From Burkholderiaceae bacterium (GTDB taxonomy: Bacteria; Pseudomonadota; Gammaproteobacteria; Burkholderiales; Burkholderiaceae_E), in contig JAGXFG010000004.1 of the NCBI GenBank assembly GCA_024637395.1, positions 1-64,000 on the forward strand: a DNA stretch of 64,000 nt. The letters are read 5' to 3'. Numbering within the stretch: position 1 is the stretch's first letter; every line of letters starts with the position of its first letter. The notes beneath the pieces were generated by a model. It was not told the DNA's origin. It searched no databases and saw only the letters and a program-made list of their open reading frames with translations. Positions 8,397-40,064 of the stretch are shown here, one piece after another. Made by a program: the position numbers and the translations under genes.

Positions 8397-8409
8397 GTAG
8401 TTCTCCTTT

Positions 8410-9607: not shown

Positions 9608-9664
9608 GGTCGCGATGATTCCATCATGGGGCTCGCCGCCACTGGCCGCGACTCACCGCCAAAG

Positions 9665-9700: not shown

Positions 9701-9712
9701 GCCCTGCAGCAA

Positions 9713-9734: not shown

Positions 9735-9752
9735 AGCGATGCCGGCCGCCGA

Positions 9753-23843: not shown

Positions 23844-26800
23844 TCAGCCGACCCAGGTCCTGGCGTTGCGAAACAGCCGCATCCACCCCGAGTCCTCGCC
23901 GCTGTCGGCTGGTTGCCAGCTCATCTGCACACTGCGGAACACCCGCTCCGGATGGGGCATCAGGATGGTCGCGCGGCCGTCATCGCTGGTAAACCCGGTC
24001 AGTCCGCCCGGTGAGCCGTTGGGATTGGCCGGATAGCTGCTGGCCACCGCGCCGTCGTTGGCCACGAAGCGCAGCGTTGCTCGGCCCGACTTCAGCCCGG
24101 CTTCGCCATCGAACACCACCCTGCCCTCCCCGTGCGAGACCGCGATCGGCATCCTGCTGCCGGCCATGCCGCGCAGCAGTATCGAGGGCGAATCAAGGAC
24201 TTCGACCATCGCCAACCGGGCCTCGAACTGCTCCGAACGGTTGCGCTCGAACGATGGCCAGCCCTGCGCTCCGGGGATGATCGCTTTCAGCTGGGCGAGC
24301 ATCTGGCAGCCATTGCACACGCCCAGCGTGAAGGTGTCGCGTTGCGCGAAGAAGCGGGCGAAGGCCTCGGCCAGCCCGTCGTGGAACAGCACCGTCTTGG
24401 CCCATCCCGAGCCGGCGCCGAGTACGTCGCCGTAGGAAAATCCCCCGCAAGCCACCAGCCCCCGGAAACCGGCCAGATCGCGCCGTCCATCGAGCAGGTC
24501 GCTCATGTGGATATCGCACGCCTCGAACCCGGCGCGAATGAACGCTGCCGCCATTTCAGTCTGGCTGTTGACCCCCTGTTCGCGCAGGATCGCAACCCGC
24601 GGCCTGGCACCGACGTTGATCATCGGTGCGGCAACGTCTTCGCCGGGATCGAACGAAAGCGCAACGCTCAGTCCCGGATCTCCGTCGCGAGCGCTGGCGG
24701 CGAATTCCTCGCGGGCGCATTCGGGGTCATCGCGCAGCGCCGCGATCCGATAGCTGGTCTCCGACCAGAGGCGCTGCAGGCTAGCGCGCTCCGCTCCGTA
24801 GACCAGGTGCCCACCTTGACGAAATTCGATCCGGTCGTCGGTACGCAGGTTTCCGAGCAGGTGGGCAACCTCCGCCAGGCCATCGGCGGCGAGTTCGGCG
24901 AGCACCAGGTCGAGCTGCGCGGCGCGCACCTGCACCACCGCGCCGAGCTCTTCAGCAAATAGCGCCGCGACCATTTGCTCATGCGGCGCTGCGCTGCTCA
25001 ATGGCCCGGTGGCGCCTGCGACCAGCGGGTCGAGATCAATCTGCACCCCGCAGTGGCCCGCAAAAGCCATCTCGCAGACCGTCGCGAACAGCCCACCGTC
25101 GGAGCGGTCGTGGTAGGCCAGCAGCAGGCCCTGCGAACGCAGCCGCTGGAGCGCGGCAAAGAAGCGCGCGAGGAGTTGCGGATCGTCGCAGTCCGGGGCG
25201 AGGTCGCCGATCTGGCCGCTAACCTGTGCCAGTGCCGAGCCCCCGAGGCGCCGACGGCCGGCGCCGAGATCAATGACGAGCAGCACCGATTCCTCGCCGG
25301 TCAGCAATTGCGGGGTCAGCGCTGCTCGCGCGTCGGCCACCGGCGCGAAGGCGGTCACGATCAGCGAGGTCGGAGCCACCACCTTCTTGACCTGCAACGG
25401 GGCTGGTTTGCTGTTGCCCGCGGGCACCGCAGCTTCCTCCCAGAGCGTGCGCATCGAGAGCGAATCCTTGCCCACCGGGATGCCGATACCCAGCGCGATC
25501 GCCAGTTCGCTGGCCGCTGCGACCCCGTCGTGCAGGTCAGCGTCGTCGCCCGGTTCACCGGCCGCGGCCATCCAGTTGGCCGACAGCCTGATCCGGCCGA
25601 GCGCCGCGATCGGTGCCGCGGCGATGTTGGTAATCGCCTCGGCAATCGCCATCCGCGAAGCCGCTGCCGCGTCGATGACCGCCAGCGGGGTGCGCTCCCC
25701 CATCGCCAGGGCCTCGCCGGCGTAGCCCTCGAAATCCATCAGCCCGATAGCGCAGTCGGCGACCGGCACCTGCCACGGCCCGACCATCTGGTCGCGTGCA
25801 CTCAGCCCGCCGACGGTGCGATCGCCGATGGTGATCAGAAAACTCTTGCTCGCCACGCTCGGCAACTGAAGCACGCGCTGCGCAATGGTGTCGAGATCAA
25901 GGCGGTTGCAGTCGATGCCGGGCAGCGCTCGCTGGCGACGCTGCGCCACGCACAGCAACCGCGGCGGCTTGCCCAGCAGTACCTCCATCTCCATGTCGAC
26001 CGGATTGCTGCCGTCGTCGTCGGCCAGCACCAGTCGCCCGTCGTCGCTCACCGTCCCGATGACGGCAAAAGGACAGCGCTCACGCCGACAAAGTGCCGAA
26101 AAGTCCTCCAGGCTGGCGGGGGCGAGCGCCAGCACGTAGCGCTCCTGCGATTCGTTGCACCAGATTTCGGCCGCCGACATGCCCGATTCCTCGAGCGGGA
26201 TGCGGCGCAATTCGAAGCGCGCCGCCCGCCCGGCGCCATCGACCAGTTCGGGGAATGCATTCGACAGGCCGCCGGCGCCAACGTCATGGATCGACAGGAT
26301 CGGATTGTCCTCACCCTGCTCCCAGCAGCGGTTGAGCACTTCCTGGGCGCGCCTCTCCATCTCGGGGTTGCCGCGCTGCACCGAGTCAAAGTCCAGCGCC
26401 GCGGTATTGGTTCCCGCGCCCATGCTCGATGCGGCACCGCCGCCCAGGCCGATGCGCATTCCCGGGCCGCCGAGATGAATCAGCAGGGTCCCGACCGGGA
26501 GATCGTTCTTGTGGGTATGGCGGTCGTCGATGTTGCCGACCCCACCGGCGATCATGATCGGCTTGTGATAGCCGCGAACCAGTCCGGCAACGTTCTGTTC
26601 GTAGCTGCGGAAGTAGCCCAGCAGGTTCGGCCGGCCGAACTCGTTGTTGAAGGAAGCAGCCCCAATCGGCGCCTCGATCATGATCTGCAGTGGCGTCGCG
26701 ATGCGTTCCGGCACGCCATAAGGCGCGGCCATACTTTCGCCAGCCGTCGCGGCGGTGACGTCCTGCGAGTTCTCCCAGGGCCGGACGGCGCCGGGCAGGC

Positions 26801-27848
26801 AGAGGTTGGAGACCGTGAAGCCGACCAGGCCGAACTTGGGCTTGGCGCCGCGACCGGTTGCACCCTCATCGCGCAGTTCCCCGCCCGATCCGGTAGCCGC
26901 GCCGGCGAACGGGGCGATCGCGCTCGGGTGGTTGTGGGTCTCGACCTTGAGGACGCTGTGGGTAAGCCAGGGCACAGCGGCGTAACTGCCGACCTGCGAT
27001 TGCGGGTGCGGGAAGACCCGGGTCGCGACCCGGCCCTCGAGCACCGCTGCGTTGTCCGAGTAGGCCACAATGGTATGGGCCGGACTGGCCGCATGGGTGG
27101 CGCGGATCATCCCGAACAGCGTGCTCGCGGCGGGCACCCCGTCGAGCACCCATTCGGCGTTGAAAATCTTGTGGCGGCAGTGCTCGGAATTGGCCTGCGC
27201 GAACATCATCAGTTCGACATCGGTCGGGTCGCGCTGCGCGGCACCGAAGGCCTGCATCAGGTAATCGATCTCGTCATCCGAGAGCGCCAGTCCCAACGCG
27301 ACGTTGGCCTCTGCAAGGGCAGCGCGCCCGCGCTCACCCACCGCGATCCGCTGCAGCGGCTTGCCCGGCAGCGAAGCGAAAACCTGCTGCGGATCGGGGG
27401 CGTCGAACAGGACCGATTCGGTCATCCGGTCGTGCAACGGTTGGGCCACCCGGCGCAGCTGAGTCGCCTCCAGTGGCGCTGACGGCGCGCCGCTCTCGGC
27501 TACCGCCAGGCTGTAAAGGATGCCGCGCTCGATGCGGCGGATCGAATCGAATCCGCAGCTATGCGCGATGTCGGTGGCCTTGCTCGCCCATGGGGAAATC
27601 GTGCCCAGCCGCGGCAGGACGTAGACGGCGTCGCGTGCCGACCCGGGTTGGTTCGGATGGGCCGCCAGCAGTGCTTGCAGCCGCTCGCTCGCCAGCAGGT
27701 CGAGAGCGCTGTCCGACCAGACCAGGTAGAAGAAACTGGCTGCCAGCCCGCTGACCGCAGGCTCTAGCGCCTTGACCTGGGTACGCAGCCGCGCCAGCCT
27801 GAATTCCGAGAGCGCCGTCGCGCCAGAAAGTGTGAGAAACGCGGACAT
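23844..27848 (-). CDS. purL: Phosphoribosylformylglycinamidine synthase
   Basis: The 1334-residue single-chain FGAM synthase performs step four of purine synthesis, using ATP and glutamine to make FGAM. Visible parts are the N-terminal PurS-like region, the duplicated AIRS-type synthetase domains (ETHNHPSAIAPF, GGAASSMGAG, SIHDVGAGGL, KDSLSM, HDRSDGG), and the C-terminal glutaminase. The glutaminase nucleophile cysteine is in GVCNGCQML near residue 1178, with catalytic H/E in SHGEGR and MPHPER. Length is slightly above E. coli PurL (1295). No ribosome site is evident before the ATG. Confidence 0.97.
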   Translation of the reverse strand: MSAFLTLSGATALSEFRLARLRTQVKALEPAVSGLAASFFYLVWSDSALDLLASERLQALLAAHPNQPGSARDAVYVLPRLGTISPWASKATDIAHSCGFDSIRRIERGILYSLAVAESGAPSAPLEATQLRRVAQPLHDRMTESVLFDAPDPQQVFASLPGKPLQRIAVGERGRAALAEANVALGLALSDDEIDYLMQAFGAAQRDPTDVELMMFAQANSEHCRHKIFNAEWVLDGVPAASTLFGMIRATHAASPAHTIVAYSDNAAVLEGRVATRVFPHPQSQVGSYAAVPWLTHSVLKVETHNHPSAIAPFAGAATGSGGELRDEGATGRGAKPKFGLVGFTVSNLCLPGAVRPWENSQDVTAATAGESMAAPYGVPERIATPLQIMIEAPIGAASFNNEFGRPNLLGYFRSYEQNVAGLVRGYHKPIMIAGGVGNIDDRHTHKNDLPVGTLLIHLGGPGMRIGLGGGAASSMGAGTNTAALDFDSVQRGNPEMERRAQEVLNRCWEQGEDNPILSIHDVGAGGLSNAFPELVDGAGRAARFELRRIPLEESGMSAAEIWCNESQERYVLALAPASLEDFSALCRRERCPFAVIGTVSDDGRLVLADDDGSNPVDMEMEVLLGKPPRLLCVAQRRQRALPGIDCNRLDLDTIAQRVLQLPSVASKSFLITIGDRTVGGLSARDQMVGPWQVPVADCAIGLMDFEGYAGEALAMGERTPLAVIDAAAASRMAIAEAITNIAAAPIAALGRIRLSANWMAAAGEPGDDADLHDGVAAASELAIALGIGIPVGKDSLSMRTLWEEAAVPAGNSKPAPLQVKKVVAPTSLIVTAFAPVADARAALTPQLLTGEESVLLVIDLGAGRRRLGGSALAQVSGQIGDLAPDCDDPQLLARFFAALQRLRSQGLLLAYHDRSDGGLFATVCEMAFAGHCGVQIDLDPLVAGATGPLSSAAPHEQMVAALFAEELGAVVQVRAAQLDLVLAELAADGLAEVAHLLGNLRTDDRIEFRQGGHLVYGAERASLQRLWSETSYRIAALRDDPECAREEFAASARDGDPGLSVALSFDPGEDVAAPMINVGARPRVAILREQGVNSQTEMAAAFIRAGFEACDIHMSDLLDGRRDLAGFRGLVACGGFSYGDVLGAGSGWAKTVLFHDGLAEAFARFFAQRDTFTLGVCNGCQMLAQLKAIIPGAQGWPSFERNRSEQFEARLAMVEVLDSPSILLRGMAGSRMPIAVSHGEGRVVFDGEAGLKSGRATLRFVANDGAVASSYPANPNGSPGGLTGFTSDDGRATILMPHPERVFRSVQMSWQPADSGEDSGWMRLFRNARTWVG

Positions 27849-28064
27849 GGCAAAACCCGGGGCCGGAGGGCGCGATTATACCCGTCGCCCCTTGCCCCAT
27901 CGCTGCCCCGCAAGGCCGTGTTGCCCGCCAGGGTCAGTCGCGGCGACAGCCGCCGCCACCGCCGCGGCGGCGCCACTCAGGAGGGGACTCCGAAGCCGCC
28001 TCAGACCCGCTGTGTGGCGCTCCAGATTGTCGGGGGATCACACCAGGATCCATTGCTGTCGCGA

Positions 28065-29381
28065 TCAGGATGTCCCAATCATCAGGTCGGGCAGGATTGT
28101 CACGATGCGCGGAAAGATCGTGATCAACGTCACCGCCAGGCATAGCAACAGGAAGAAGGGAAATGTCGCGCGCGTAACCTGCCAGATGTCCCGCCCGGTG
28201 AGCCCTTGGAGCACGAACAGATTGAAGCCCACCGGCGGGGTGATTTGGGCCATTTCGATGACCATCACCATATATACGCCGAACCACAGGAGGTCGATGC
28301 CAGCTGCCTGGACCATCGGCAGGATCACGGCACTGGTCAATACCAGGATGGAGATGCCTTCCAGAAAGAAGCCCAGGATGATGAAGAATACGGCGAGCAC
28401 TGCCAGCAGCATATAGTGCGACAAGCCGATGCTCTGCACCAAACCGGCCAGTACCTGCGGCACGTTTAGGAAGGCGACGGCAATCGAGAGCACCGCCGCG
28501 CGCGAGATAATGAACGCGATCATGCAGGAAACCTTGGTGGCCGAAAGCAGACTATCGGCCAAGCTCACCCACGACAACGTGCGACTCTTTGCGGCCAGAC
28601 CGAGTGCGCCAATGACGCCCATTGTGGCCGCTTCCGTCGGTGTGGCCAGACCGCCATAGATCGACCCGACCACAACGCCGATCAGCAGCAACACGGGCAG
28701 CAATTCCCGGGAATTCCATAGCTTCTGCTGGAACGACATCGGTCGGTCACGCGGTGGCACCTTGGCTGGGTTCAAGCTAGCCCAGATGGCCGTATAGGTC
28801 ATGAATAGCGCGATCACCAGCACTCCAGGAAGAACGCCGGCGATGAACAGCTTAGCGACCGACACCTGTGCCAGTACGCCATATACGATCATGACGATGG
28901 AGGGCGGAATCAGGAGCCCGAGCGTTCCCGAACCGGCCAGAGTGCCGATCATCATGTTCTCGTCGTAGCCGCGCTTCTGCAATTCAGGCAGGCTCATTCG
29001 GCCGATTGTGGCGCAGGTCACCGCGGAAGATCCCGTCACTCCGGCCATGATGCCGCAACCCAGCACATTCACATGCAGCAGGCGCCCGGGAAGCCAGCTC
29101 ACCCAGGGCCCCAACCCTTTGAACATGCTCTCCGACAGCCGTGTCCGGAACAGGATCTCACCCATCCAGACGAAGAGCGGCAAGGCGGTCAAGGCCCAGC
29201 TCCAGCTGGCATCCCACATGGTCGAAATGACGAGCGAGCCCACCGGCACGTCAGAAAAAAGGGCAAGTCCCACAATGCCTACACCGCTCAGCGAAACGGC
29301 GATCCAGATTCCGGAGCCGAGGAACAAGAGCAACGAGGCCAACAGAACAGCCAGCGCAACCAAGATCATCGACTGGTCCAT
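28065..29381 (-). CDS. dctM: TRAP transporter large permease (DctM type)
   Basis: The 438-residue protein has about 12 membrane helices and forms the sodium-driven transport channel of a TRAP system. Typical segments are FVWMGEILFRTRLSESMFKG, GCGIMAGVTGSSAVTCATIG, LIPPSIVMIVYG, and ITPPVGFNLFVLQGLTG near the C-terminus. It is the last gene of a leftward dctP-dctQ-dctM set. The 216-bp gap to purL contains no gene. A 59-codon remnant of another dctM lies on the opposite strand at 36652. Confidence 0.95.
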   Translation of the reverse strand: MDQSMILVALAVLLASLLLFLGSGIWIAVSLSGVGIVGLALFSDVPVGSLVISTMWDASWSWALTALPLFVWMGEILFRTRLSESMFKGLGPWVSWLPGRLLHVNVLGCGIMAGVTGSSAVTCATIGRMSLPELQKRGYDENMMIGTLAGSGTLGLLIPPSIVMIVYGVLAQVSVAKLFIAGVLPGVLVIALFMTYTAIWASLNPAKVPPRDRPMSFQQKLWNSRELLPVLLLIGVVVGSIYGGLATPTEAATMGVIGALGLAAKSRTLSWVSLADSLLSATKVSCMIAFIISRAAVLSIAVAFLNVPQVLAGLVQSIGLSHYMLLAVLAVFFIILGFFLEGISILVLTSAVILPMVQAAGIDLLWFGVYMVMVIEMAQITPPVGFNLFVLQGLTGRDIWQVTRATFPFFLLLCLAVTLITIFPRIVTILPDLMIGTS

Positions 29382-29408
29382 GCTTTACCCTGGTCAGATG
29401 ATGCGCTG

Positions 29409-29915
29409 CTATTCCAACGCACCGCGTGAATTGGCCTCGTAGCTCGGGGTCTGGCCGCGAGCGACGCAGAGCAGATCGTCCACAAGAGCCACGGTCATGA
29501 TGATCAGACCCAGAACCATGCCGGTCTGTGGAATCCAGAACGGGGCAGCCAGGAGCCCGGGGCTGATGTCGCCGAACGTATATGTTTGCCAGACGAACAA
29601 GGCTGCGCTCACCGACAGGAACCCCGTCACACTCGCCGCCGCAGCGCAGCACCACAGCTCAAAGGCCCTGCGGCTCTTGCCGGTGAAGCGGATGACCAGC
29701 ATGTTCACGCGGATATGGCCCCCCCCGCGCAAGGTATAGCCCAAGCCAAGAAACGACGAAGCCGCCAGGCAAAAACCCGCCAGCTCCGTCGAATCGACGA
29801 TCTTGCCGAAGAACCGGCCCACGATCTGCGCGAGAATGCTCACCCCGATCGCCAGCAGGAAGAAGGCCGCCAAAGCTCCGCTGAACCGGTACAAGCCGTC
29901 CAGAAACCTGCGCAA
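29409..29915 (-). CDS. dctQ: TRAP transporter small permease (DctQ type)
   Basis: The 168-residue protein has four predicted helices and the DctQ features GRFFGKIVDSTELAGFCLAA and LGLGYTLRGGGHIRVNML, the latter matching the family's RxGxHIRV motif. It couples the binding protein to the large permease. The start is a TTG at 29915 preceded by a GGAGAG site 9 nt away; no ATG fits the N-terminus better. It lies 27 bp before dctM. Confidence 0.9.
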   Translation of the reverse strand: MRRFLDGLYRFSGALAAFFLLAIGVSILAQIVGRFFGKIVDSTELAGFCLAASSFLGLGYTLRGGGHIRVNMLVIRFTGKSRRAFELWCCAAAASVTGFLSVSAALFVWQTYTFGDISPGLLAAPFWIPQTGMVLGLIIMTVALVDDLLCVARGQTPSYEANSRGALE

Positions 29916-29964
29916 GATGACTCTCTCCTCAGAAAAGCCGGAAAGACCGATTAGGAGGCGGCCT

Positions 29965-30960
29965 TCACTTCGGCGCGACCTGGCTCCTGGCCTTCAGGTA
30001 GTTGTCCAGAACCTTCTGCTCGGCGGGTAACGCAGACTGCCGCCATTCGGCAATCATGGTCTCGCCCACCTTCTTCAGTTCGGCCTGGATCGCGGGCGAA
30101 GCATCCTCCACCACCATGCCCTTACTGCGCAGTACATCGACCTTGTCGCTATTGGCCTTCTTGCTCATTTCCCGGCCGCGCGCGGTAGCATGTTCGCCAG
30201 CCTCAATCACGATCTGCTGCACATCCTTGTCCAGCCGACTCAGTGCGGCCTGATTGACGATGATCGCGTTCTTGTTGTGCATGCTACCGGTGTACGTGAA
30301 GTACTTGGTGTTCTCCCACGCTTGCACGTCGGTCCCGGTCTGGGCACTGGTGAACAACGCCTCGATCATGCCGGTGGCGAACGCCTGTGATATCTCCGCA
30401 AATGGCAGGATCGTGCTCTGGAATCCAAGCATATCGCCCATCTTTTGGGTGGGCGCCGAGTAGATGCGCAGGCGCTGGCCCTTGAAGTCGGCCACGGTCT
30501 TCACCGGCGCCTTGGTGTAGAACCCTTGGCCCGGCCAAGGCACGTAGGCCAGGACGCGCATGCCGTTCTTGCCGAACAACTCGGCGAAATACGGCTTCTG
30601 GGCCTGCGTCAGGAGCGCTTCTTCCTCGTAGTTCGACGCGATGTTGGGCAGGGCGTCCAGGATGTACATCTGACCCTCGTTGCCGTAGACGCCCAGGCGG
30701 ATCTCGCCAATCGGCACCTGCCCCGACTGGACCGCGCGCTTGATGGCGTCATGCTTGATGAGGGTGTCATTGGAGCGGAGATCGATCTTCAGCCGACCTT
30801 GGCTCTTGGTTTCCACTTCCTTGATGAACTCACGAATGTTCTGAGTAAAGAAGTTGCTCTCGGGGTAACCCGATGCCATGGTCCAGGTCGTGGCTGCGGT
30901 GGCAGTCGATGCTGCCGTCACGCACAAGGCCAACGCGGTAAACAGATGACGAGGTTTCAT
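29965..30960 (-). CDS. dctP: TRAP transporter solute-binding protein (DctP type)
   Basis: The 331-residue periplasmic protein has a Sec signal (residues 1-22). DctP hallmarks are visible: SGYPESNFFTQNIREF, GQVPIGEIRLG, VKTVADFKGQRLRIYSAP (which carries the ligand carboxylate-binding arginine) and LFTSAQTGTDVQAWE. Ligands of this family are usually organic acids. Divergent hyuA-hyuB and an aminotransferase suggest an N-containing acid such as a hydantoin, oxoproline-like or carbamoyl compound; this is inference. Confidence 0.93.
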   Translation of the reverse strand: MKPRHLFTALALCVTAASTATAATTWTMASGYPESNFFTQNIREFIKEVETKSQGRLKIDLRSNDTLIKHDAIKRAVQSGQVPIGEIRLGVYGNEGQMYILDALPNIASNYEEEALLTQAQKPYFAELFGKNGMRVLAYVPWPGQGFYTKAPVKTVADFKGQRLRIYSAPTQKMGDMLGFQSTILPFAEISQAFATGMIEALFTSAQTGTDVQAWENTKYFTYTGSMHNKNAIIVNQAALSRLDKDVQQIVIEAGEHATARGREMSKKANSDKVDVLRSKGMVVEDASPAIQAELKKVGETMIAEWRQSALPAEQKVLDNYLKARSQVAPK

Positions 30961-31465
30961 GCTGGTCTCCTAGATAAGTGGCCCGATCTGTCTGAATATT
31001 CAATCGGATTTGATCAGCGGGCTAGCGGCAGTCTAGCATTGATATCAGCGCTATATACCCATACAGCCCAGCTTCACAGGCAGCTGTAATCGTGTCCTGA
31101 GTCGTCGAACTCTGCGCTATGGAGCAGAGCTTTCGGCGCCCCGCATGGAATAACGCGAGGAATCAAACAATAATATAAACTGCGATCACCCTGCTCGTCA
31201 TCCGCGCGCATAGTGGTAGGTTAGACGTCGCCCTTGGCAGGGCGGATAACCGGCAGACCGCCACCGTCGCACCAGTGGGTGCGGTGCGCGGTCCCGCTGG
31301 TAGATGCGACTGGATCCAATGGGGTTGGGATGCCCGGGCCAGTTGGGTTTGGTGGGTGCAGGTGATCAATCTTCGGGGCGAAAGAGCAGCGCGGCATGTT
31401 GCCCGAACCCCGGGGCCCGCCGGCAAAGGATGGCGGGCAGGGGCGGGAAAACTGGGCAACGGAGA
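30961..31465. other. Divergent dctP-hyuA control region
   Basis: About 505 bp separate the divergent TRAP and hydantoinase operons. The dctP-proximal 200 bp are A/T-rich and probably hold both promoters. The hyuA-proximal part is G/C-rich without a recognisable protein or RNA structure. No regulator gene is present, so control must come from elsewhere. Confidence 0.45.
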
Positions 31466-33586
31466 ATGCGCGTGAATGGCACAGAACAGCAGGTACGGGT
31501 AGGGGTCGATATCGGGGGCACCTTTACCGACATTGCCCTGGAGTTGGGCAGCAGTCTCTATTCCGCCAAAGTCTTGACCGACTACACGGCTCCCGAGCGC
31601 GCGATTTTGGCGGGCCTGCAGCAGGTTCTTGACCAAGCCGGGTTAGCCCATGGCGATATCGCGGTCATTATTCATGGAACCACACTGGCGACCAATGCGC
31701 TCATCGAGCGCAGCGGGGCGCGTACGGCGCTGATCACGACCGAAGGATTCCGAGACGTGATCGAGATGCGGTCGGAAAACCGTTTTGAACAGTACGACCT
31801 GAACATAGCGTTACCGCAGGCCCTCGTGGATCGCTGCGACCGCTACGTACTGCGCGAACGCATGGGCGCCCAGGGGCAGGTGCTGGTGGCGCTACGCCAG
31901 GTCGACATCGACGCACTTGTTGATGTCATTCGCCAAGGCGGGTATGAAAGCGTAGCGGTCGGCTTCCTGCACAGCTACATGAATGCGGCGCATGAAGTGA
32001 TGGTGCGTGACGCGCTGACCAGCGCGCTGCCAAATCTATCGGTTTCGATTTCGGCAGAAGTCTCCCCACAGATGCGCGAATACGAACGCTTCAATACGGT
32101 GTGCGCAAACGCCTATGTGAAGCCTCTCATGAAATCCTGCCTCGATCGGCTGGTGACGGCCTTGCAGCAGTCAGGGTGCCATTGTCCGCTGTTCATGATG
32201 CATTCTGGCGGCGGCATAATCTCGGTGGAAACCGCTGCCGAATTCCCGGTGCGGTTGGTGGAATCGGGCCCTGCGGGCGGCGCGATCTTCGCGGCGAACG
32301 TTGCCGAACGACATGGCCTGGAATCGGTGATGTCTTTCGACATGGGCGGCACGACCGCCAAAATTTGCCTGATCCAGAACTACGCGCCAAAGACGACCAA
32401 GACTTTCGAGGTCGCGCGGACCTATCGGTTCAAGAAGGGCAGTGGCATGCCCATTTCTGTACCGGTAGTGGAAATGGTGGAGATCGGCGCTGGTGGGGGC
32501 TCGATAGCAAGCATCGATTCCTTGCACCAGATTCGCGTGGGGCCACGCAGCGCCGGATCCGAGCCAGGCCCGGCCTGCTACCAGCGCGGTGGCGAAGAGC
32601 CAACGGTGACCGATGCGGATCTGATTCTGGGTGCTCTGGACCCGGACTACTTCGCGGGCGGTGCCATGACCCTTTCGCGCGAGAATGCTGAAACGGCGAT
32701 TCGTTCCCGCGTCGGCGACCCCTTGTCGCTGGATGCGGAAATCGCCGCCTATGGCGTAGTCGAGGTCGTGGACGAGAATATGTCCAACGCCGGCCGCGTC
32801 CACGCGGTGGAAAGCGGCTTCGACATCAGTGATTTCACCATGGTCACCTTTGGCGGGGCGGGACCCGTGCATGCCGGTCGGCTCTGTGAGAAGCTGGGGG
32901 TGACCCGATTCATCGTCCCTCAGGGTGCCGGCGTGGGTTCGGCCATTGGCTTCCTGCGCGCACCGTTCAGCTTTGAAGCTGCACGCAGTGGCTACCAGCG
33001 CCTGAGTCGCTTTGACGCGGGAGCACTAAACCGCCTGGTGCGCGGATTGACCGAAGAGGCGATCGCTTTCGCGCGGCAGGGGATTTCCGCAGGCGATCCG
33101 ATGACCGAGCGTGTCGCCTATATGCGCTACGTCGGGCAGGGATGGGAGATCCCCGTCGCTATTCCCGATCACGACGAATACCAACCCGAAGACGTCGCCC
33201 TCTTCAAGGATCTATTCGTGCAGGCCTACACGCGCTTCTTCGGTCGTCCAATCGAAAGACTGGACATTGAGATCGTCAGCTGGTCCATCAAGGCCAGTAC
33301 GGCCCGCGTCCCCGTATCTCGCGCAGCTGCGCCGCAAGCCAGAACACCCGCTCCGGTGCGCGGGCAGCGCAGGTTGTTTGATCCGAAGCGAGGCACCTTT
33401 GTGCAAGCCCAAGTCTGCCATCGCGAGGATCTCGTGCCGGGGGCGTTTGTGGCCGGGCCGGCGGTGGTGGTCGAACGCGAAACCGCGACCGTGATTTCTG
33501 CGGAATTCGAGGCGGTGGTGCAGGAAGACCTGTCCCTCCTGGTGTCCTTGCGGGACAACGCGCACGCCATTGTGAGCAAGAAATGA
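31466..33586 (+). CDS. hyuA: Hydantoinase/oxoprolinase family protein, HyuA
   Basis: The 706-residue ATP-dependent amidohydrolase subunit carries the actin-like ATPase motif GVDIGGTFTDIALELG near the N-terminus. Further motifs are HGTTLATNALIERSGA, FNTVCANAYVKPLM, SFDMGGTTAKICL, GAGGGSIASID and GPRSAGSEPGPACY. With HyuB it opens hydantoins, N-methylhydantoins or 5-oxoproline at the cost of ATP. ATG 31466 is only 2 nt from GGAG; GTG 31472, two codons on, has the better spacing and may be the real start. It overlaps hyuB by 4 bp. Confidence 0.93.
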   Translation: MRVNGTEQQVRVGVDIGGTFTDIALELGSSLYSAKVLTDYTAPERAILAGLQQVLDQAGLAHGDIAVIIHGTTLATNALIERSGARTALITTEGFRDVIEMRSENRFEQYDLNIALPQALVDRCDRYVLRERMGAQGQVLVALRQVDIDALVDVIRQGGYESVAVGFLHSYMNAAHEVMVRDALTSALPNLSVSISAEVSPQMREYERFNTVCANAYVKPLMKSCLDRLVTALQQSGCHCPLFMMHSGGGIISVETAAEFPVRLVESGPAGGAIFAANVAERHGLESVMSFDMGGTTAKICLIQNYAPKTTKTFEVARTYRFKKGSGMPISVPVVEMVEIGAGGGSIASIDSLHQIRVGPRSAGSEPGPACYQRGGEEPTVTDADLILGALDPDYFAGGAMTLSRENAETAIRSRVGDPLSLDAEIAAYGVVEVVDENMSNAGRVHAVESGFDISDFTMVTFGGAGPVHAGRLCEKLGVTRFIVPQGAGVGSAIGFLRAPFSFEAARSGYQRLSRFDAGALNRLVRGLTEEAIAFARQGISAGDPMTERVAYMRYVGQGWEIPVAIPDHDEYQPEDVALFKDLFVQAYTRFFGRPIERLDIEIVSWSIKASTARVPVSRAAAPQARTPAPVRGQRRLFDPKRGTFVQAQVCHREDLVPGAFVAGPAVVVERETATVISAEFEAVVQEDLSLLVSLRDNAHAIVSKK

Positions 33587-35265
33587 CGAATCCGATCGCT
33601 AACATTCACATGCAGGTCATGTGGAACCGCCTGATCTCCGTGGTCGAAGAACAGGCTTTGACCCTGGTACGGACCGCCTTTAGCACCAGCGTGCGGGAAG
33701 CAGGCGACCTTTCTGCAGGGGTGTTTGACCGCGCTGGACGCATGCTGGCGCAGGCGGTTACCGGCACGCCCGGTCACGTGAATGCCATGGCCGAAGCGGT
33801 TGGACATTTCATCCGCGATATCGGTGAGGCCCGTATTTTCGAAGGCGACGTCTACATTACGAACGACCCTTGGAAGGGCACTGGACACCTGCACGACATC
33901 ACCGTGGTCACCCCTTCGTTCTGCGCCGGAGAGCTGATCGGATATTTCGCCTGCACCGCGCATGTGGTCGACATCGGTGGCCGCGGTTTCGGGCCTGGCG
34001 GACGGGAAGTCTACGAAGAGGGTCTGTTTATTCCGATCATGAAATTCGCCGAACGCGGCGAGGTCAATCAAGATCTGGTCAACATCGTCGCCAACAACGT
34101 TCGGGAGGCGGATCAGGTGGTGGGCGATATCTACTCGCTGGCCGCATGTAACGAAACGGGGCAGCAGCGCCTGATGACCATGCTGGACGAGTTTGACCTA
34201 GCCGATCTGGAAGAACTGGGCACCTTCATCCTTGAACACAGCCGGCGCGCAACGCTGGAAAGAATCGCGGCGCTGCCCAAAGGTGTCTACGAGAACAGTA
34301 TGGAACTGGACGGCTACGACGTGCCGGTAAAGCTGGTGGTGAAGCTTTGCATCGACGAAAACGGCATCCTGGCTGATTTCGCGGGAACCACGGGCTGCAG
34401 CAGCTATGGCATCAACGTTCCCGTCATCTATACCAAGGCCTACTCCGGCTACGGATTGAAGTGCGCGATCGCCCCTGAGATCCCCAACAATGCGGGGTCC
34501 CTTGCGCCGTTTGACGTATCGGCGCCGCCCGGCTGCATCCTGAACGCGCTGCGTCCCAGCCCGGTAGCCGTACGTCACGTGCTCGGCCACTTCGTGCCTG
34601 ACTTGGTGCTTGGCGCGCTGCACGGCTCTCTCCCTGAGCAGATTCCAGCCGAAGGTGCCGGCGCGACCTGGAACATTCATATCAGCGCACGCGCGCGTTC
34701 CGATGCAAGGCCAGACGTCGAGCGCAAGTCGAGCGAGATACTCATGTTCAACAGTGGCGGCGGAGGGGCTCGTCCCGGTCTGGACGGCCTGCACGCTACG
34801 GCCTTTCCAAGCGGAGTGCGCACCATGCCGGTGGAGGCTACCGAACAGGTGGGTCCGATCGTCGTCTGGCGCAAGGAATTACGTCCGGACTCCGGCGGCG
34901 CAGGCTGCATGCGCGGTGGACTGGGTCAGGTGGTCGAGATTGCCGCAGCCGAGGGCTACCAGATTCACTTCAACGCCATGTTCGACCGTACGCGTTTTGC
35001 GGCGCGTGGACGCAATGGAGGTGGCGAAGGCCAGGCCGGCACCGTCGCGCTGGACGACGGCACCGTCTTGCGCGGCAAGGGCTCGCGCATCGAAGTACCG
35101 GTGGGCCGCAGCGTGGTGCTGAGTCTGCCCGGCGGGGGGGGCCATGGCGCGCCAGCCGCGCGTAGTCCGCAGGCGGTGGCAAGCGATGTGAAGAATGGCT
35201 ACGTGTCGGCGGAGCGTGCTCGCGACGACTACGGCTATGTGTCGCACGTCAAGCCGGCAAACTAA
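33583..35265 (+). CDS. hyuB: Hydantoinase B / oxoprolinase family protein, HyuB
   Basis: The 560-residue subunit shows the HyuB signatures VEEQALTLVRTAFSTSVREA, NDPWKGTGHLHDITVV, GRGFGPGGREVYEEGL, NSGGGGARPGLDG and the C-terminal SLPGGGGHGAP. It forms the ATP-dependent lactamase complex with HyuA, to which it is coupled by ATGA overlap. An aminotransferase follows 21 bp later. The true substrate cannot be read from either subunit. Confidence 0.93.
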   Translation: MTNPIANIHMQVMWNRLISVVEEQALTLVRTAFSTSVREAGDLSAGVFDRAGRMLAQAVTGTPGHVNAMAEAVGHFIRDIGEARIFEGDVYITNDPWKGTGHLHDITVVTPSFCAGELIGYFACTAHVVDIGGRGFGPGGREVYEEGLFIPIMKFAERGEVNQDLVNIVANNVREADQVVGDIYSLAACNETGQQRLMTMLDEFDLADLEELGTFILEHSRRATLERIAALPKGVYENSMELDGYDVPVKLVVKLCIDENGILADFAGTTGCSSYGINVPVIYTKAYSGYGLKCAIAPEIPNNAGSLAPFDVSAPPGCILNALRPSPVAVRHVLGHFVPDLVLGALHGSLPEQIPAEGAGATWNIHISARARSDARPDVERKSSEILMFNSGGGGARPGLDGLHATAFPSGVRTMPVEATEQVGPIVVWRKELRPDSGGAGCMRGGLGQVVEIAAAEGYQIHFNAMFDRTRFAARGRNGGGEGQAGTVALDDGTVLRGKGSRIEVPVGRSVVLSLPGGGGHGAPAARSPQAVASDVKNGYVSAERARDDYGYVSHVKPAN

Positions 35266-35286
35266 CCTAAGCGAAGAGGCAACGAT

Positions 35287-36504
35287 TTGGAATTCCAAGC
35301 CGAGCGGATCAAGCTGATCAAGGCTTCGCCCAGCATGGCGATCTCGCTGCAGGCGCGCAAAATGCGCCAGGAGGGCGCGGATGTCATTGATCTCAGCCTG
35401 GGCGAGCCCGACTTCGATACGCCAGCCCACATCGTTGAGGCAGCTTATCGCGCAATGTGTGCGGGTCAGACGCGTTATACGGCCGCCGACGGCACCCCCG
35501 AACTGAAGGCCGCCGTCGCGCGCAAGTTCCAGCGCGATAACGGACTGATCTTTGCGCCCGACGAGATATCGGTTGCCAACGGCGCCAAGCAGAGCATTTT
35601 CAACGGCTTGTTTGCGACTCTGGAGCCGGGCGACGAGGTGCTGATTCCGGCGCCGTTCTGGGTGTCGTATTCCGACATGGTCTCCTTGGCGGGCGGCGTG
35701 CCGCGCATCGTGCCGTGCGGAATCGAAAGCGACTTCCTGTTGACGCCGGAGAGCTTCGAACAACACCTGACGCCGCGTACCCGATGGGTCATCCTGAACT
35801 CGCCTTCCAACCCAAGCGGAGCCGTCTACGACCGCGGGCAGCTGGGCGCCTTGGGCGAAGTGCTGCTGAAACATCCCCGGGTGCTGGTGTTGTCCGACGA
35901 AATCTACGAACACATTACCTATGGCGCCGTACCCTTCGTCTCCTTTGGCGCTGCCTGCCCGGCGTTGCGCGGTCGCACCCTGATCGTCAACGGTGTCTCC
36001 AAGACCTACGCAATGACGGGTTGGCGCATCGGCTATGCCGCCGGACCGAAAGCCCTGATGGTTGCCATGGGCAAGATCCAGTCGCAGAGCACCAGCAACC
36101 CCTGCTCGGTGGCACAAGCCGCTGCGGTGGAAGCCTTGAACGGGCCGCAAGATTGCGTGGCACCGATGGTGGCCGAGTACCGCTCACGCAGCACCCGCGT
36201 CCTTGAGGCGTTGTCACGCATCCCGGGCCTGCGCACGGCGCAGCCGCAAGGTGCCTTCTACGCTTACCCGCACTGCGGCAGCTTTATTGGCACGCGCGCT
36301 CCCGATGGGCAAACCATTTCCAATGACGCGGATCTGGCCGCTTACTTGTTGCGCATTGGCCATGTGGCAACCGTGCCCGGGGTCGCCTTCGGCCTGTCGC
36401 CATATCTTCGATTGTCGTTCGCGACATCGCAGGCGGTCCTGGACGACGCAATGGAGCGTATCCAGCGAGCGTTGGCCGACTTGCGGCAAGATGCTCATAT
36501 GTGA
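35287..36504 (+). CDS. Class I PLP aminotransferase (AspC/AatA type)
   Basis: The 405-residue fold-type I aminotransferase has VIDLSLGEPDFDTPAHIVEA at the N-terminus, the PLP aspartate/tyrosine region VLVLSDEIYEHITY, and the Schiff-base lysine in VNGVSKTYAMTGWRIGY. The arginine for the substrate carboxylate is near the C-terminus (PYLRLSFA). It starts at TTG 35287 with a GAAGAGG site, matching the family N-terminus (FQAERIKLIKASPSMAIS). It lies third in the hyuA-hyuB operon and probably deaminates the amino acid released by HyuAB. Confidence 0.92.
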   Translation: MEFQAERIKLIKASPSMAISLQARKMRQEGADVIDLSLGEPDFDTPAHIVEAAYRAMCAGQTRYTAADGTPELKAAVARKFQRDNGLIFAPDEISVANGAKQSIFNGLFATLEPGDEVLIPAPFWVSYSDMVSLAGGVPRIVPCGIESDFLLTPESFEQHLTPRTRWVILNSPSNPSGAVYDRGQLGALGEVLLKHPRVLVLSDEIYEHITYGAVPFVSFGAACPALRGRTLIVNGVSKTYAMTGWRIGYAAGPKALMVAMGKIQSQSTSNPCSVAQAAAVEALNGPQDCVAPMVAEYRSRSTRVLEALSRIPGLRTAQPQGAFYAYPHCGSFIGTRAPDGQTISNDADLAAYLLRIGHVATVPGVAFGLSPYLRLSFATSQAVLDDAMERIQRALADLRQDAHM

Positions 36505-36651
36505 AGCGACGAGAGGCTATTTCTGGGCGCTCTACATCCGGGTTGCCACTTGGAGTCGAAATTCTTTTTGAGAGACCTGAATGTTATGAAACCGGACGCA
36601 TCGAAGTAGCTTTGTGGCAGGTGCGTCAAACCGCGGGTTAGAGTCCCGTCG
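36505..36651. other. Unassigned junction sequence between cassette and dctM remnant
   Basis: The 147 bp between the aminotransferase stop and the dctM remnant are A/T-richer than their surroundings and encode nothing recognisable. The last 20 bp contain a tRNA T-arm-like sequence, listed separately. This segment probably marks a rearrangement boundary. Confidence 0.4.
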
Positions 36652-36660
36652 ACCCCGCCG
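36633..36660 (+). other. Degenerate tRNA 3'-end-like sequence
   Basis: Positions 36633-36649 fold as a T-arm: GCGGG and CCCGT pair (one G-U) around TTAGAGT, matching the TTCRANY loop except for A in place of the invariant C56. It is followed by seven bases (CGACCCC), a G and CCG, echoing acceptor strand, discriminator and CCA. No matching 5' half exists upstream, so it is not a functional tRNA. tRNA 3' ends are common integration targets. Confidence 0.35.
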
Positions 36661-36828
36661 GTCGGCTTCAATCTGTTCGTCCTCCAGGGCATGACCAAAC
36701 TGGAACTGCCGTGGATCGCCCGGGCGGCAATGCCGATGTTCCTGCTGATGGTGCTGGCGGTCGCGCTGATCTACTTGTTCCCCGACCTGGTCGTCTGGCT
36801 GCCGCATCAGATGCGCATGGCTCCCTGA
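36652..36828 (+). pseudogene. dctM 3' remnant (59 codons)
   Basis: The frame reads TPPVGFNLFVLQGMTKLELP, continues as a hydrophobic helix and ends QMRMAP before a TGA. This is exactly the C-terminal segment of DctM-type TRAP permeases; compare ITPPVGFNLFVLQGLTG in the intact dctM at 28065-29381. Everything upstream of the TPPVGF motif is missing and there is no start codon or ribosome site. It is oriented opposite to the intact dctM and is too divergent to be a recent copy of it, so a second TRAP gene was broken here. Confidence 0.85.
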
Positions 36829-36922: not shown

Positions 36923-38458
36923 ATGGGCTCCGATCTCACCGGCTGCTTCGGAACAGCTCCCGCGACGGGAGCCTTGTTCACCACTGCCACGATCCGGGCC
37001 GTCGAAGCCAACTGGCTGGCGCGGCTGCCCCATGCAACGCTGATGGAGCGCGCGGCACAGGCCTGTACCGATGCGCTCGAGCGCATCGCGTGGCGCCTCC
37101 CCCGCGGGACACCGCTGATTGCCCTGGCCGGGCCGGGCAACAACGGCGGCGACGCGCTGCTGGCGGCGCTCAAGTTGCGCGCTATCGGTTTCACCTGCCA
37201 TGTCTGGTCGGGCGCCGCGACGCCGCCGCCGGGCGGCGAGGCACATGAGGTGCGTGCCCGCTGGCTGGCCGCCGGTAGCGGGTTCATCGGCACTGAAGAG
37301 TTGCTGGCGGCCGCCCGTGCCGGGGCGATCATGATCGACGGCTTGTTCGGCATCGGGCTGGGGCGCGCGCTCGGTGGTGAATACGCGGCCCTGGTGAGGA
37401 ACTTGAATGACGCTGGTTGCACTGCTCTGGGCGTTGATGTGCCCAGCGGCATCGACGCCGACACCGGCGCGGTGGTCGGAGGCAGCGCCGGTGTGGCCCT
37501 GCGCTGCGTTGCGACCGTAACCATGATCGGTGACAAGCCCGGGTTGCACACCGGAGCTGCGCTCGACTACGTTGGTCAGCTGAGTGTGGCTGACCTGGGC
37601 ACGGGCGAATTCCCGGCGGCCGATGGCCTGCTGGTTGGTGGCGACTGGGTCCGGCAACGGCTGCGCACGCGGCCAGTGACCAGCCACAAGGGAAGTTTCG
37701 GAACAGTCTGCATCATTGGCGGGGCTCAGGGGATGAGTGGCGCGGCCTTGCTGGCAGGTCGCGGCGCGATGGCAGCTGGCGCCGGCAAGGTCTATATTGC
37801 TGGGCCTGACGGTCCGGCGTTTGACCCGAGTCAACCACAGTTGATGACCCGCGATACCGAGGAAGCGCTCGACGATGTCAGCGCTGTCGCGATCGGCTGC
37901 GGACTGGGCAGCAGCCACGCAGCTGGCGTGCTGCTCGGCCGGGCGATAGTCTCACCGGCAGCCCTGGTGCTCGACGCCGATGCGCTCAACCTCATCGCTG
38001 CAGAGGACAGCGCGGGCACCTCCTTTGCCAAGCTCAGCGCGCGTGCCGCCGACACCACGCTGCTCACGCCGCATCCGCTCGAAGCCGCGCGCCTGCTGGG
38101 GAGCACACCCGCGGCAATCGCTGCCGACCGGATTGCGGCCGCGCTTGAGCTGGCTCGGCGCAGCGGCTGTGTCGTGATCCTCAAAGGAGCCGGATCGATC
38201 ATCGCCGAGCCGCTCGGATCTTGGTCAGTCAATGACTCGGGCAGCCCGGCCCTGGCCAGCGCCGGCAGCGGCGACGTCCTCGCTGGCATGGCGGCAGCGC
38301 TGCTGGCCCAGGGCTACGGCGCGCTCGAGGCCGCGCAATTGGCGGCGTGGCTGCACGGGCGGGCGGGCGAGGTCTGGAGTGAACAGCATCCCCGCCACTG
38401 CGGCATGTCGGCAGCGCAGCTGCCGGCCCTGATCACCGAGGCAATCAATGGCGTCTGA
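36923..38458 (+). CDS. nnr: Bifunctional NAD(P)H-hydrate repair enzyme
   Basis: The 511-residue protein repairs hydrated NADH/NADPH. The N-terminal epimerase (YjeF_N) has AGPGNNGGDALLAALKL, GLFGIGLGRALGGEY and DVPSGIDADTGAV. The C-terminal ADP-dependent dehydratase has SHKGSFGTVCIIGGAQGMSG, TPHPLEAARLLG, VILKGAG and the catalytic NDSGSPALASAGSGDVLAGM. The ATG has no clear ribosome site. It overlaps pgi by 11 bp. Confidence 0.95.
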   Translation: MGSDLTGCFGTAPATGALFTTATIRAVEANWLARLPHATLMERAAQACTDALERIAWRLPRGTPLIALAGPGNNGGDALLAALKLRAIGFTCHVWSGAATPPPGGEAHEVRARWLAAGSGFIGTEELLAAARAGAIMIDGLFGIGLGRALGGEYAALVRNLNDAGCTALGVDVPSGIDADTGAVVGGSAGVALRCVATVTMIGDKPGLHTGAALDYVGQLSVADLGTGEFPAADGLLVGGDWVRQRLRTRPVTSHKGSFGTVCIIGGAQGMSGAALLAGRGAMAAGAGKVYIAGPDGPAFDPSQPQLMTRDTEEALDDVSAVAIGCGLGSSHAAGVLLGRAIVSPAALVLDADALNLIAAEDSAGTSFAKLSARAADTTLLTPHPLEAARLLGSTPAAIAADRIAAALELARRSGCVVILKGAGSIIAEPLGSWSVNDSGSPALASAGSGDVLAGMAAALLAQGYGALEAAQLAAWLHGRAGEVWSEQHPRHCGMSAAQLPALITEAINGV

Positions 38459-40064
38459 GCGCAATTTGGCCCGCAACGATGAGCGAACGGCGTTTCGGGC
38501 TTCACTGGACGGGCTGCGCGAACGCTCCCGGAGCGTGGGCGAATGCTCGATCAGTGCCTTGTTCGCAAACGAGCCGGAGCGCCTGGCGCGTCTCAGCTTC
38601 GAATGCGCTCCGCTGAGCGTCGACCTGTCGCGCCAGCGCCTGCCGCTCACTGATCTCCCCAGCCTGTTCGCTCACGCCGCAGCTTCGGGCTGGCACGCCG
38701 GACGGGAACGAATGTTCGCGGGCGAGGCGATCAACTTCACCGAGCAGCGCGCCGCTTTCCACGTCGCCCTGCGAGCCCGGCGGCCGATGCCGCTCGCCGA
38801 CGACGGCGACGTCATGCCCCAGGTGTCTGCCACCCTGGAGCGGATGGGCGAGTTCTCTGCCGCGGTCCGCGCCGGCGCACACCGCGGCGCGCACGGCGAT
38901 CGAATCAGCGACATCGTGGCAATCGGCATCGGTGGCTCGGCTCTGGGGCCGGAGCTGGCCTGCGAGGCGCTGGCTTCAGATGGGCAGCCCGGCTTGCGGG
39001 TGCATTTTCTGGCCAACGTCGATCCGGCGTCCTGGGCGAGTGTTCGCCAAGGTCTCCGGGCGGACACGACCCTGGCGATCATATCCTCGAAGACCTGGTC
39101 GACCGCCGAAACCATTGCCAACGCCACTGCGGTGCGCGACTGGCTGCTCAACGAGGGGATTGCGCCCGGCGAGCTGCATCGCCACCTCGCCGGGGTCACT
39201 GCCCGACCCGAGCGCGCGCTCGCGTTCGGAGTGTCGGAGGCGGCGCTGTTTTCACTTCCGGACTGGGTGGGAGGCCGTTACTCGCTCTGGTCGGCCATCG
39301 GTTTGCCACTGATGCTGGCGATCGGGCCCGCGGCCTTTGACGAGTTGCTCGCCGGAGCGCGCGCCGTTGACGAACATTTCTTCACCACGCCGATCGAGCG
39401 CAACGCTCCGGCCATGCTCGTGCTGGTCTCGCTCTGGAACTCCCTGGTGCTGCACACGCAAACCGAAGCGGTGATTCCCTACAGCCACTCGTTGCGGCGC
39501 TTGCCAGCCTACCTGCAACAACTGCAGATGGAGAGCAACGGCAAGGGCGTCGATAGTGACGGGGTGGCACTCGACTACCCGAGTGGCGCCGTGACCTGGG
39601 GCGAACCCGGGACCGACGCACAACATTCCTTTTTCCAGGCCCTGCATCAGGGACCGGCGATTCATCCGGTGGATTTCATCCTGGTCGCGCCGCCGCCGGG
39701 CGAGCTTGCTCCCGCGGCCGCCAAGTTGCTGGCCAACGGCCTGGCCCAGGCCGAGGCGCTGCTGCGCGGCGACCCTGGGGCAGACGATCCGCATCGCCGC
39801 TGTCCGGGAAATCGTCCTTCGACAACGATCCTGCTCGATGGCCTGACTCCGCGCAGTCTTGGGGCGCTGCTGGCGCTCTACGAACACAAGACCGCATCGC
39901 TGGGATGGCTGCTGCGGATCAACTCCTTCGACCAGTGGGGCGTGGAGCTCGGCAAACGGGTGGCGCTGCGCATCGAGGCGCTGCTCACCGATCCCGGCCT
40001 GGCTCTGCCGAGCGACATGGATCCGTCGACCGCCGCGCTGGTCGAGCGACTACGCCGGCGCTAA
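38448..40064 (+). CDS. pgi: Glucose-6-phosphate isomerase
   Basis: The 538-residue enzyme interconverts glucose-6-phosphate and fructose-6-phosphate. It shows IGIGGSALGPELACEAL, the first PGI signature GGRYSLWSAIGLP, the catalytic QLQMESNGKG region, and the second signature INSFDQWGVELGK. The start inside the nnr 3' end (11-bp overlap) implies translational coupling of a repair enzyme and a central-carbon enzyme. It is convergent with ybbA, 26 bp away. Confidence 0.96.
   Translation: MASERNLARNDERTAFRASLDGLRERSRSVGECSISALFANEPERLARLSFECAPLSVDLSRQRLPLTDLPSLFAHAAASGWHAGRERMFAGEAINFTEQRAAFHVALRARRPMPLADDGDVMPQVSATLERMGEFSAAVRAGAHRGAHGDRISDIVAIGIGGSALGPELACEALASDGQPGLRVHFLANVDPASWASVRQGLRADTTLAIISSKTWSTAETIANATAVRDWLLNEGIAPGELHRHLAGVTARPERALAFGVSEAALFSLPDWVGGRYSLWSAIGLPLMLAIGPAAFDELLAGARAVDEHFFTTPIERNAPAMLVLVSLWNSLVLHTQTEAVIPYSHSLRRLPAYLQQLQMESNGKGVDSDGVALDYPSGAVTWGEPGTDAQHSFFQALHQGPAIHPVDFILVAPPPGELAPAAAKLLANGLAQAEALLRGDPGADDPHRRCPGNRPSTTILLDGLTPRSLGALLALYEHKTASLGWLLRINSFDQWGVELGKRVALRIEALLTDPGLALPSDMDPSTAALVERLRRR

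Follow-up and report, generated by a model that had tools for sequence, protein, structure and literature searches.

A two-subunit hydantoinase/oxoprolinase-family cassette with a TRAP transporter and an aminotransferase in the place of a native 5-oxoproline-type cassette of a Burkholderiaceae bacterium

Several described bacterial systems handle 5-oxoproline, which is glutamate in cyclised form, or other cyclic amides. In Bordetella pertussis, DctP6 and DctP7, receptors of TRAP (tripartite ATP-independent periplasmic) transporters, have been crystallised with 5-oxoproline, which DctP7 binds with a Kd of 0.3 uM (available sections of PMC13274462 and PMC11668362), and a gene for the eukaryotic-type 5-oxoprolinase (OPLAH) lies nearby (PMC13274462, same sections). 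A further bacterial route from 5-oxoproline to glutamate is formed by PxpABC with the transporter PxpT; the available sections of PMC13274462 and PMC8453981 describe PxpABC as having no sequence relation to OPLAH-type enzymes. Here we describe a six-gene cassette in a 64,000-nucleotide stretch (the window) of contig JAGXFG010000004.1 from the draft genome of a Burkholderiaceae bacterium (GCA_024637395.1, hereafter G000; other G labels denote genomes of relatives, L labels fetched loci and C labels contigs). In this cassette the transporter genes dctP, dctQ and dctM diverge from hyuA, hyuB and an aminotransferase gene. With a probability of roughly 0.6, we read it as a unit that takes up 5-oxoproline or a closely related, perhaps substituted, lactam acid through the TRAP transporter, opens the ring at the expense of ATP and transaminates the product, and that has replaced the 5-oxoproline cassette native to the slot between purL and yjeF.

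The resemblance to the B. pertussis system lies in the binding-protein family and in its linkage to an enzyme of the hydantoinase/oxoprolinase family, and relatives of G000 hold such a cassette in the very same slot. By contrast, the window DctP falls in a sister branch whose pocket is altered, its hydrolase consists of two separate and distant subunits (HyuA sharing about 30% identity with OPLAH), an aminotransferase gene comes in addition and the layout is mirrored. PxpA genes occur in G000 too, but PxpABC and PxpT are not part of the cassette. Searches of titles and the beginnings of abstracts found no published six-gene set of this kind, nor any uniting hyuA, hyuB, an aminotransferase and a TRAP transporter, and a literature search combining 5-oxoprolinase, TRAP transporter and hydantoinase returned no paper. 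The cassette appears to be a new variant among known oxoprolinase/TRAP-type systems, and a rare gene set.

The replacement is visible at both junctions, which were compared by blastn with the native loci of same-genus relatives (Table 1). DNA homology through purL stops at 27890 (against G002) or 27889 (G003), and from 36652 the sequence is again homologous to G001, G002 and G003. From there on the window holds the end of another dctM, which agrees with an earlier observation in the preliminary description that the cassette ends at a broken gene. This remnant is identical to the native gene at 98% (G001) and 81% (G002) over 59 codons, and at 93% over 58 residues in G003; upstream of 36652 its frame is not dctM. 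The intervening segment thus occupies the former place of OPLAH, dctP, dctQ and most of dctM, with the transporter and hydrolase sides exchanged. The locus is a clear example of a catabolic cassette that has supplanted a distantly related functional counterpart at the same chromosomal site, where a remnant of 58 codons tells what was lost.

The native content of the slot was read in the right-flank neighbourhood of six relatives (G001, G002, G003, G010, G028 and G030). In G002, G003 and G030 it comprises purL, a region akin to HyuA/HyuB with about 30% identity to that of the window, dctP-dctQ-dctM and yjeF-pgi; the contig of G001 starts just ahead of dctP, its OPLAH gene lying near the start of another contig. 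A TRAP system therefore accompanies the slot in four of the six loci, and in G028 and G010 a HyuA/HyuB-like gene adjoins yjeF with no dctPQM match. In G003 the hydrolase is encoded by a single open frame of 1286 aa that begins with TTG and contains both a Hydantoinase_A and a Hydantoinase_B domain; since orthologues that align from their own start begin near its residue 62-81, the true protein may be nearer 1210 aa. By its domains, this single chain is the fused form of the eukaryotic-type enzyme, OPLAH, and the native DctP, judged from that of G003 (the sole one tested; best Protein Data Bank [PDB] match 2pfz, 449.7 bits), is closest to a Bordetella 5-oxoproline receptor. OPLAH was found at E<=1e-200 in 29 of 61 genomes searched. 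Inspected by eye, it shares a contig with yjeF at less than 6 kb in 17 of these, lies on a different contig in nine and is on the same contig but far away in three. All three other genomes of the genus (G001, G002, G003) carry it. In G000 itself, a draft of 131 contigs that is 95.5% complete, an own-genome search found no OPLAH, matching only the window HyuAB and a fragment on contig C9. Conversely, hyuA of the window type was not found at E<=1e-100 in the three same-genus relatives, and none of the six native cassettes has an aminotransferase inside it (one weak match of 25%, in L077, lies beyond pgi). A conserved position in all close relatives had been named beforehand as what would speak against transfer; half of this is true, as the slot is conserved for a 5-oxoproline-type cassette while the version in the window is non-orthologous.

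How the cassette came to its place is suggested by a short sequence at the right junction. At 25 of 28 bases, 18 of the 19 before the break included, it agrees with the T arm and acceptor strand that form the 3' end of the tRNA-Asp gene of the same genome (G000:C97). A junction that repeats the 3' end of a tRNA is a mark of tRNA-targeted integrative elements. At the same place the three native loci match at only 12-14 of 28 bases. None of 851 control pieces of the window reached the ungapped score of the scar (16; the highest was 12), and across the fetched sequence, 2.29 Mb with overlapping copies counted, at least 23 matches occurred, the tRNA gene aside, at one other place only (L022:259). 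A 19-base version with up to three mismatches is found once in the window, against an expectation of 0.09. The last eight bases of the scar, ACCCCGCC, overlap the native dctM remnant. They are similar to the end of the tRNA (ACTCCGCC) as well as to the dctM codons of the native loci (ACGCCACC or ACGCCGCC), a pattern that crossing over within a short core common to the two would produce. The fragment therefore looks like the attachment scar of an element aimed at tRNA-Asp, for which dctM would have served as a secondary site. No repeat of at least 14 nt joining the two junctions was found. They share only the 7-mer CCCGTCG (27881-27887 and 36645-36651), which is not significant, a 7-mer being shared by 1134 of 20000 random pairs of 30-nt pieces of the window.

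Replacement and scar together support the arrival of the cassette as a unit, and they are better evidence than low G+C, which alone proves nothing. The preliminary description had argued for transfer from a base composition less G/C-rich than the flanks. The genes of the cassette have indeed 59-63% G+C as against 68-70% in purL, yjeF and pgi, but other long open reading frames (ORFs) of the window likewise have 59-62%, and the G+C at third codon positions (GC3, 0.72-0.81) is ordinary in comparison with 35 other window ORFs (mean 0.75, sd 0.10), which were called mechanically so that some may be spurious. The composition of the cassette is thus only mildly low and within the range of the window, and as an argument for transfer it is weak and was set aside. 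The closest hyuB seen (82% identical) lies on contig C9 of the same genome.

The substrate class is indicated chiefly by the transporter. DctP, DctQ and DctM are encoded together (PF03480, PF04290 and PF06808 above cut-off), which makes this a DctPQM-type TRAP system. The best PDB matches of the window DctP are 2pfy (237.9 bits), 2pfz (207.5) and 6wgm (161.6), the next reaching 71.2; we take 2pfy and 2pfz to be DctP7 and DctP6 of B. pertussis, and 6wgm a binder of 5-oxoproline. Besides these scores the protein keeps the shared motifs WPGQG and TSAQTGTD and the arginine of LRIY, and thus falls in the DctP6/DctP7 family. Its closest counterpart in another family (G333, see below) shares with it the replacement of F by N in the LPF motif and of P by N before the KN motif. 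Because of such shared pocket changes, the window-type DctPs look like a sister specificity class of the 5-oxoproline receptors. As this branch differs at few pocket positions, it could reveal how specificity changes in 5-oxoproline receptors and name the lactam acid. In two other genomes, DctP paralogues of the 5-oxoproline family were seen in one stretch with an OPLAH gene: three in G110 (L171, 8195-16989) and two in G330 (L172, 3326-8997).

The hydrolase can be compared with two described enzymes. By PDB score both subunits are nearest to the N-methylhydantoinase 7hk5 (HyuA 332.6, HyuB 196.8 bits), which differs from them in being one fused chain. Another match, 6yra, appears to be the caprolactamase CapAB of Pseudomonas jessenii, its chain lengths (696 + 581) equalling those in PMC8453981. 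Like CapAB, the window HyuAB is a two-subunit enzyme of the ATP-dependent lactamase type in which the residues of the ATP and metal sites, as named in the available part of PMC8453981, are kept: D11 and D295 of CapA correspond to D15 and D292 of HyuA (numbered from 31466) and its GxxPGP motif to GSEPGP, while D41, H99, D102 and H124 of CapB correspond to D42, H102, D105 and H127 of HyuB. With these motifs and ligands, HyuAB belongs to the hydantoinase/oxoprolinase/lactamase superfamily and should be active, although the kept residues do not fix the substrate. Its scores are far below the caprolactamase equivalog cut-off of 1000 (NCBIfam; 455.6 bits for HyuA, 185.3 for HyuB) and, as a further difference from CapAB, its linked transporter comes from a family whose known ligands appear to be acids. 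Nor is it an OPLAH: instead of a fused chain of ~1200-1290 aa there are two ORFs (706 + 560 aa), and HyuA is 29-32% identical to four OPLAH sequences, whereas matches to the OPLAH of G003 lie at 61-90%. Lys40 of CapA was tried as a marker of hydantoinases versus oxoprolinases and rejected, the only nearby lysine (residue 32 by count) being present in OPLAH sequences too.

The aminotransferase is a member of the PF00155 fold family whose nearest NCBIfam model is PRK06107 (aspartate aminotransferase; 534.8 bits, below the cut-off of 617) and whose best PDB match is 6f35, 'Aspartate aminotransferase B'. Cousin operons were sought with an alignment of HyuA, and among the best 80 loci five carry a gene for an aminotransferase of this family on the same strand as hyuB and no more than 2.1 kb downstream: directly next to hyuB in L086, and with other genes between in L087, L091, L116 and L129. 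In two more of the best 80 (L104, L132) one occurs, at no less than 47% identity, in another part of the flank that was fetched. A tree of 26 aminotransferases groups the window gene with those of L086, L087, L116 and L129 (89/91). The operon of L086 consists of hyuA, hyuB, the aminotransferase and a KdgD-type dehydratase gene. In L116 (9054-17865) and L087 (8988-17841), from Arenicella and Neomegalonema metagenome-assembled genomes, a conserved operon encodes LysR, HyuA, HyuB, an FAD oxidoreductase, an HpcH/HpaI aldolase, the aminotransferase and an NAD-dependent epimerase-family protein; HpaI-type genes occur in five and an epimerase-family gene in nine of the best 80 loci. For a time 4-hydroxy-5-oxoproline was considered as the sole named substrate. 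This was abandoned, as the L086 gene that follows the aminotransferase resembled 4-hydroxy-2-oxoglutarate aldolase by fold family but scores above the cut-off for the KdgD dehydratase.

The whole set recurs outside the family of G000. A search with the window DctP at E<=1e-75 in 349 genomes of the order gave matches in four, G000 included. One of these, at 63%, is the close counterpart in G333, a genome of another family, where a single stretch encodes proteins 64% (HyuA), 68% (HyuB), 52% (aminotransferase), 71% (DctM), 52% (DctQ) and 66% (DctP) identical to those of the window. The remaining two matches (41-42%) lie within 9 kb of OPLAH and so are of the native kind. In G333 the order is hyuA-hyuB-aminotransferase followed by dctM-dctQ-dctP on the other strand, i.e. 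the halves are exchanged relative to the window. This resembles a circular permutation and would fit a circular intermediate, without proving one; within this stretch of G333 no tRNA gene was found. When 398 freshly drawn genomes of the phylum were searched, one further window-type DctP came to light, that of G674 (54%), at a contig edge. Over both searches the six-gene set was seen in two genomes, that of the window and G333. Looser associations of HyuAB of the window family with DctP genes occur on contig C9 of G000 itself, in G075 and in L132, L136 and L138 (three of the best 80 loci), in the last three of which DctP and DctM follow hyuAB.

Taken together, the cassette may work as follows. 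The periplasmic DctP would catch a small carboxylated cyclic amide, either 5-oxoproline or a near relative that may be substituted, and DctQM would bring the captured lactam acid into the cell. There HyuA would activate the lactam with ATP, and the metal site of HyuB would hydrolyse the activated lactam to the ring-opened amino acid, glutamate or a substituted form of it, from which the aminotransferase would remove the amino group to give a 2-oxo acid. The gene names and the logic of import of an acidic cyclic amide, ATP-dependent opening and transamination, as proposed in the preliminary description, stand. Where it could not name the substrate combination, the DctP family and the content of the slot in relatives now narrow the substrate class to 5-oxoproline-like lactam acids.

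A number of findings weigh against this reading. The window DctP keeps 31 of 39 columns that are invariant in 12 DctPs (three crystal chains and nine from OPLAH-bearing genomes), and in the stretch TILPFAE, common to the window, G333 and G674, it has an aromatic residue where the 12 references have T, Q, A, L or M. Because of the missing columns and the gained aromatic, 5-oxoproline itself may not fit the pocket. The aromatic aligns with PFAEV of 4nhb (with the G333 DctP as query), and by analogy it may be the position at which an aromatic residue closes the binding site in other TRAP receptors (available part of PMC11668362). In HyuB a phenylalanine (F136) replaces Tyr136 of CapB, the proposed acid/base (PMC8453981, available part). 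As regards an integrative element, which should have an integrase, none was found among the six cassette genes or the six ORFs around tRNA-Asp. G000 has two PxpA genes, so that a second 5-oxoproline hydrolase looks dispensable; all three same-genus relatives carry PxpA together with OPLAH, however, and the presence of PxpA therefore does not exclude a second enzyme for 5-oxoproline. The recurrence, too, is uneven: no hyuAB was found in the 16 kb read on one side of the G674 DctP, whose gene runs to the contig edge; DctM was not detected in the G075 stretch; the DctPs beside hyuAB in L132, L136 and L138 are only 23-25% identical to that of the window; and in the HyuA tree the window, G053 and G333 are grouped at only 90/90, a node that is not starred. 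Finally, the G333 aminotransferase groups with a gene on contig C31 of G000 (100/99; 76% identical) and not with that of the window. Joint inheritance of the aminotransferase with the rest of the cassette is thus not supported, and this kind of enzyme was thus acquired or swapped on more than one occasion. That speaks for the pathway needing it, yet also marks it as the least fixed part.

The alternatives differ mainly in the substrate. The simplest substrate is 5-oxoproline, which would mean that like was displaced by like: it would be imported and hydrolysed to glutamate, and the aminotransferase would supply 2-oxoglutarate. Such a plain functional replacement has somewhat less than even odds. 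In its favour are the shared slot, the draft in which no remaining OPLAH was found, and a DctP of the 5-oxoproline family in which the motifs WP[PG]QG and TS..TG.D are kept together with the arginine for the carboxylate. It fits less well with a pocket whose alteration is common to G333 and, partly, G674, with two PxpA genes already present, with the lack of any aminotransferase match inside the six native cassettes read, and with the sugar-acid enzymes beside cousin hyuAB operons. These cousin operons, with an aminotransferase beside a KdgD-type dehydratase (L086) or with an HpcH/HpaI aldolase and an epimerase-family protein (L087, L116), are what a second and more tentative possibility draws on. 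Here another lactam acid, e.g. a hydroxylated 5-oxoproline or an amino-aldarate lactam, would be taken up selectively by the TRAP system with its receptor from the sister branch of DctP6/7, opened with ATP by the two-subunit HyuAB and transaminated to a hydroxylated 2-oxo acid, the genes having come in as a circle that inserted into dctM via a tRNA-Asp-type attachment sequence. If true, this route would be an undescribed catabolic pathway. That a carboxylated hydantoin is converted by HyuAB to an N-carbamoyl amino acid is suggested by the top PDB score of 7hk5 for both subunits, but we regard it as improbable: an N-carbamoyl amino acid would not be a substrate of an aminotransferase, no carbamoylase is encoded among the six genes and none was recognised among the (partially annotated) G333 neighbours checked, and the N-terminal identity to 7hk5 (35%) is hardly above that to caprolactamase (33%).

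Two further explanations concern the provenance of the cassette. It might have been copied or moved from elsewhere within G000 rather than from another species, as the hyuB on contig C9 lies beside a hyuA cut to its C-terminal end. This is unlikely, since the transporter genes of C9 are only 36-59% identical to those of the window, the three same-genus relatives showed no hyuA of the window type at E<=1e-100, and the tRNA-Asp-like scar gives more weight to an integrating element and less to relocation within the genome, even if G000 itself could also be the source of an element of this kind. Far less credible is an artefact joining two unrelated stretches: the genome is fragmented, but both junctions lie within one contig with clean ends on native sequence at each side, and the listed contamination is 1.51%. 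Transfer, as first proposed, is supported by the replaced native cassette and the scar.

Table 1. Features of the cassette, its junctions and its flanks in the window.
Feature	Coordinates	Strand	Remarks
replaced segment	27891..36651	.	blastn of junctions against native loci L066, L067, L068 of same-genus relatives
native dctM remnant	36652..36828	+	final 58 codons of the slot's native dctM, with its stop
tRNA-Asp 3'-end-like fragment	36632..36659	+	25/28 bases; last 8 bases overlap native dctM remnant
dctM	28065..29381	-	TRAP large permease subunit, 438 aa; PF06808 272.9 bits; TIGR00786 above cut-off
dctQ	29409..29915	-	TRAP small permease subunit, 168 aa; PF04290 64 bits
dctP	29965..30960	-	TRAP binding protein, DctP6/DctP7 (5-oxoproline) family, apparent sister branch with altered pocket; PF03480 116.3 bits
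divergent control region	30961..31465	.	505 bp; overlapping palindrome 30986-31009, core TGAATATTCA
hyuA	31466..33586	+	706 aa, predicted ATP-binding subunit of two-subunit hydantoinase/oxoprolinase-family lactamase; PF05378 (Hydantoinase_A, 282.6 bits), PF01968, PF19278
hyuB	33583..35265	+	560 aa, predicted metal-binding hydrolytic subunit; PF02538 (Hydantoinase_B) 477.5 bits
aminotransferase	35287..36504	+	class I/II, aspartate-transaminase-like, 405 aa; PF00155 (Aminotran_1_2) 238 bits
purL	23844..27848	-	left flank common to relatives; NF003672 1929.9 bits
yjeF, NAD(P)HX epimerase-dehydratase	36923..38458	+	right flank common to relatives; PF01256, PF03853
pgi	38448..40064	+	right flank common to relatives; NF001211 616.2 bits

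All six genes exceed the gathering scores of their Pfam families and lie where they had first been placed, diverging around a region of 505 bp. The size of this gap depends on the chosen start of hyuA, whose longest ORF begins at 31304 with a first domain only from residue 65; the reading frames of hyuA and hyuB overlap by 4 bp. Within the gap there is a single weak promoter-like site, and no terminator-like site was found there. The palindrome with the core TGAATATTCA is a possible operator, no regulator being encoded in the cassette.

Contig C9 of G000 holds what may be a second lactam/amide locus (L173, G000:C9:1-19900; 5882-13479), with genes for an amidase, a DctP7-like dctMQP set, hyuB and a truncated hyuA. 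This hyuB is about 33 residues shorter than that of the window, and the hyuA is reduced to a frame of 130 residues, about 99 of which match the C-terminal end. Further along the contig (L174, G000:C9:15000-34609; 717-10428) there are a biotin-carboxylase-like protein, an FAD oxidoreductase (37% identical to one in the L116 hyuAB operon), a short-chain dehydrogenase/reductase, a glyoxalase-like protein and the second PxpA. The C31 aminotransferase mentioned above (L196, G000:C31:35000-50547; 4893-13271) adjoins ORFs that resemble, by eye, Asp/Glu/hydantoin racemases, a thiamine pyrophosphate enzyme and a TAXI-type TRAP binding protein.

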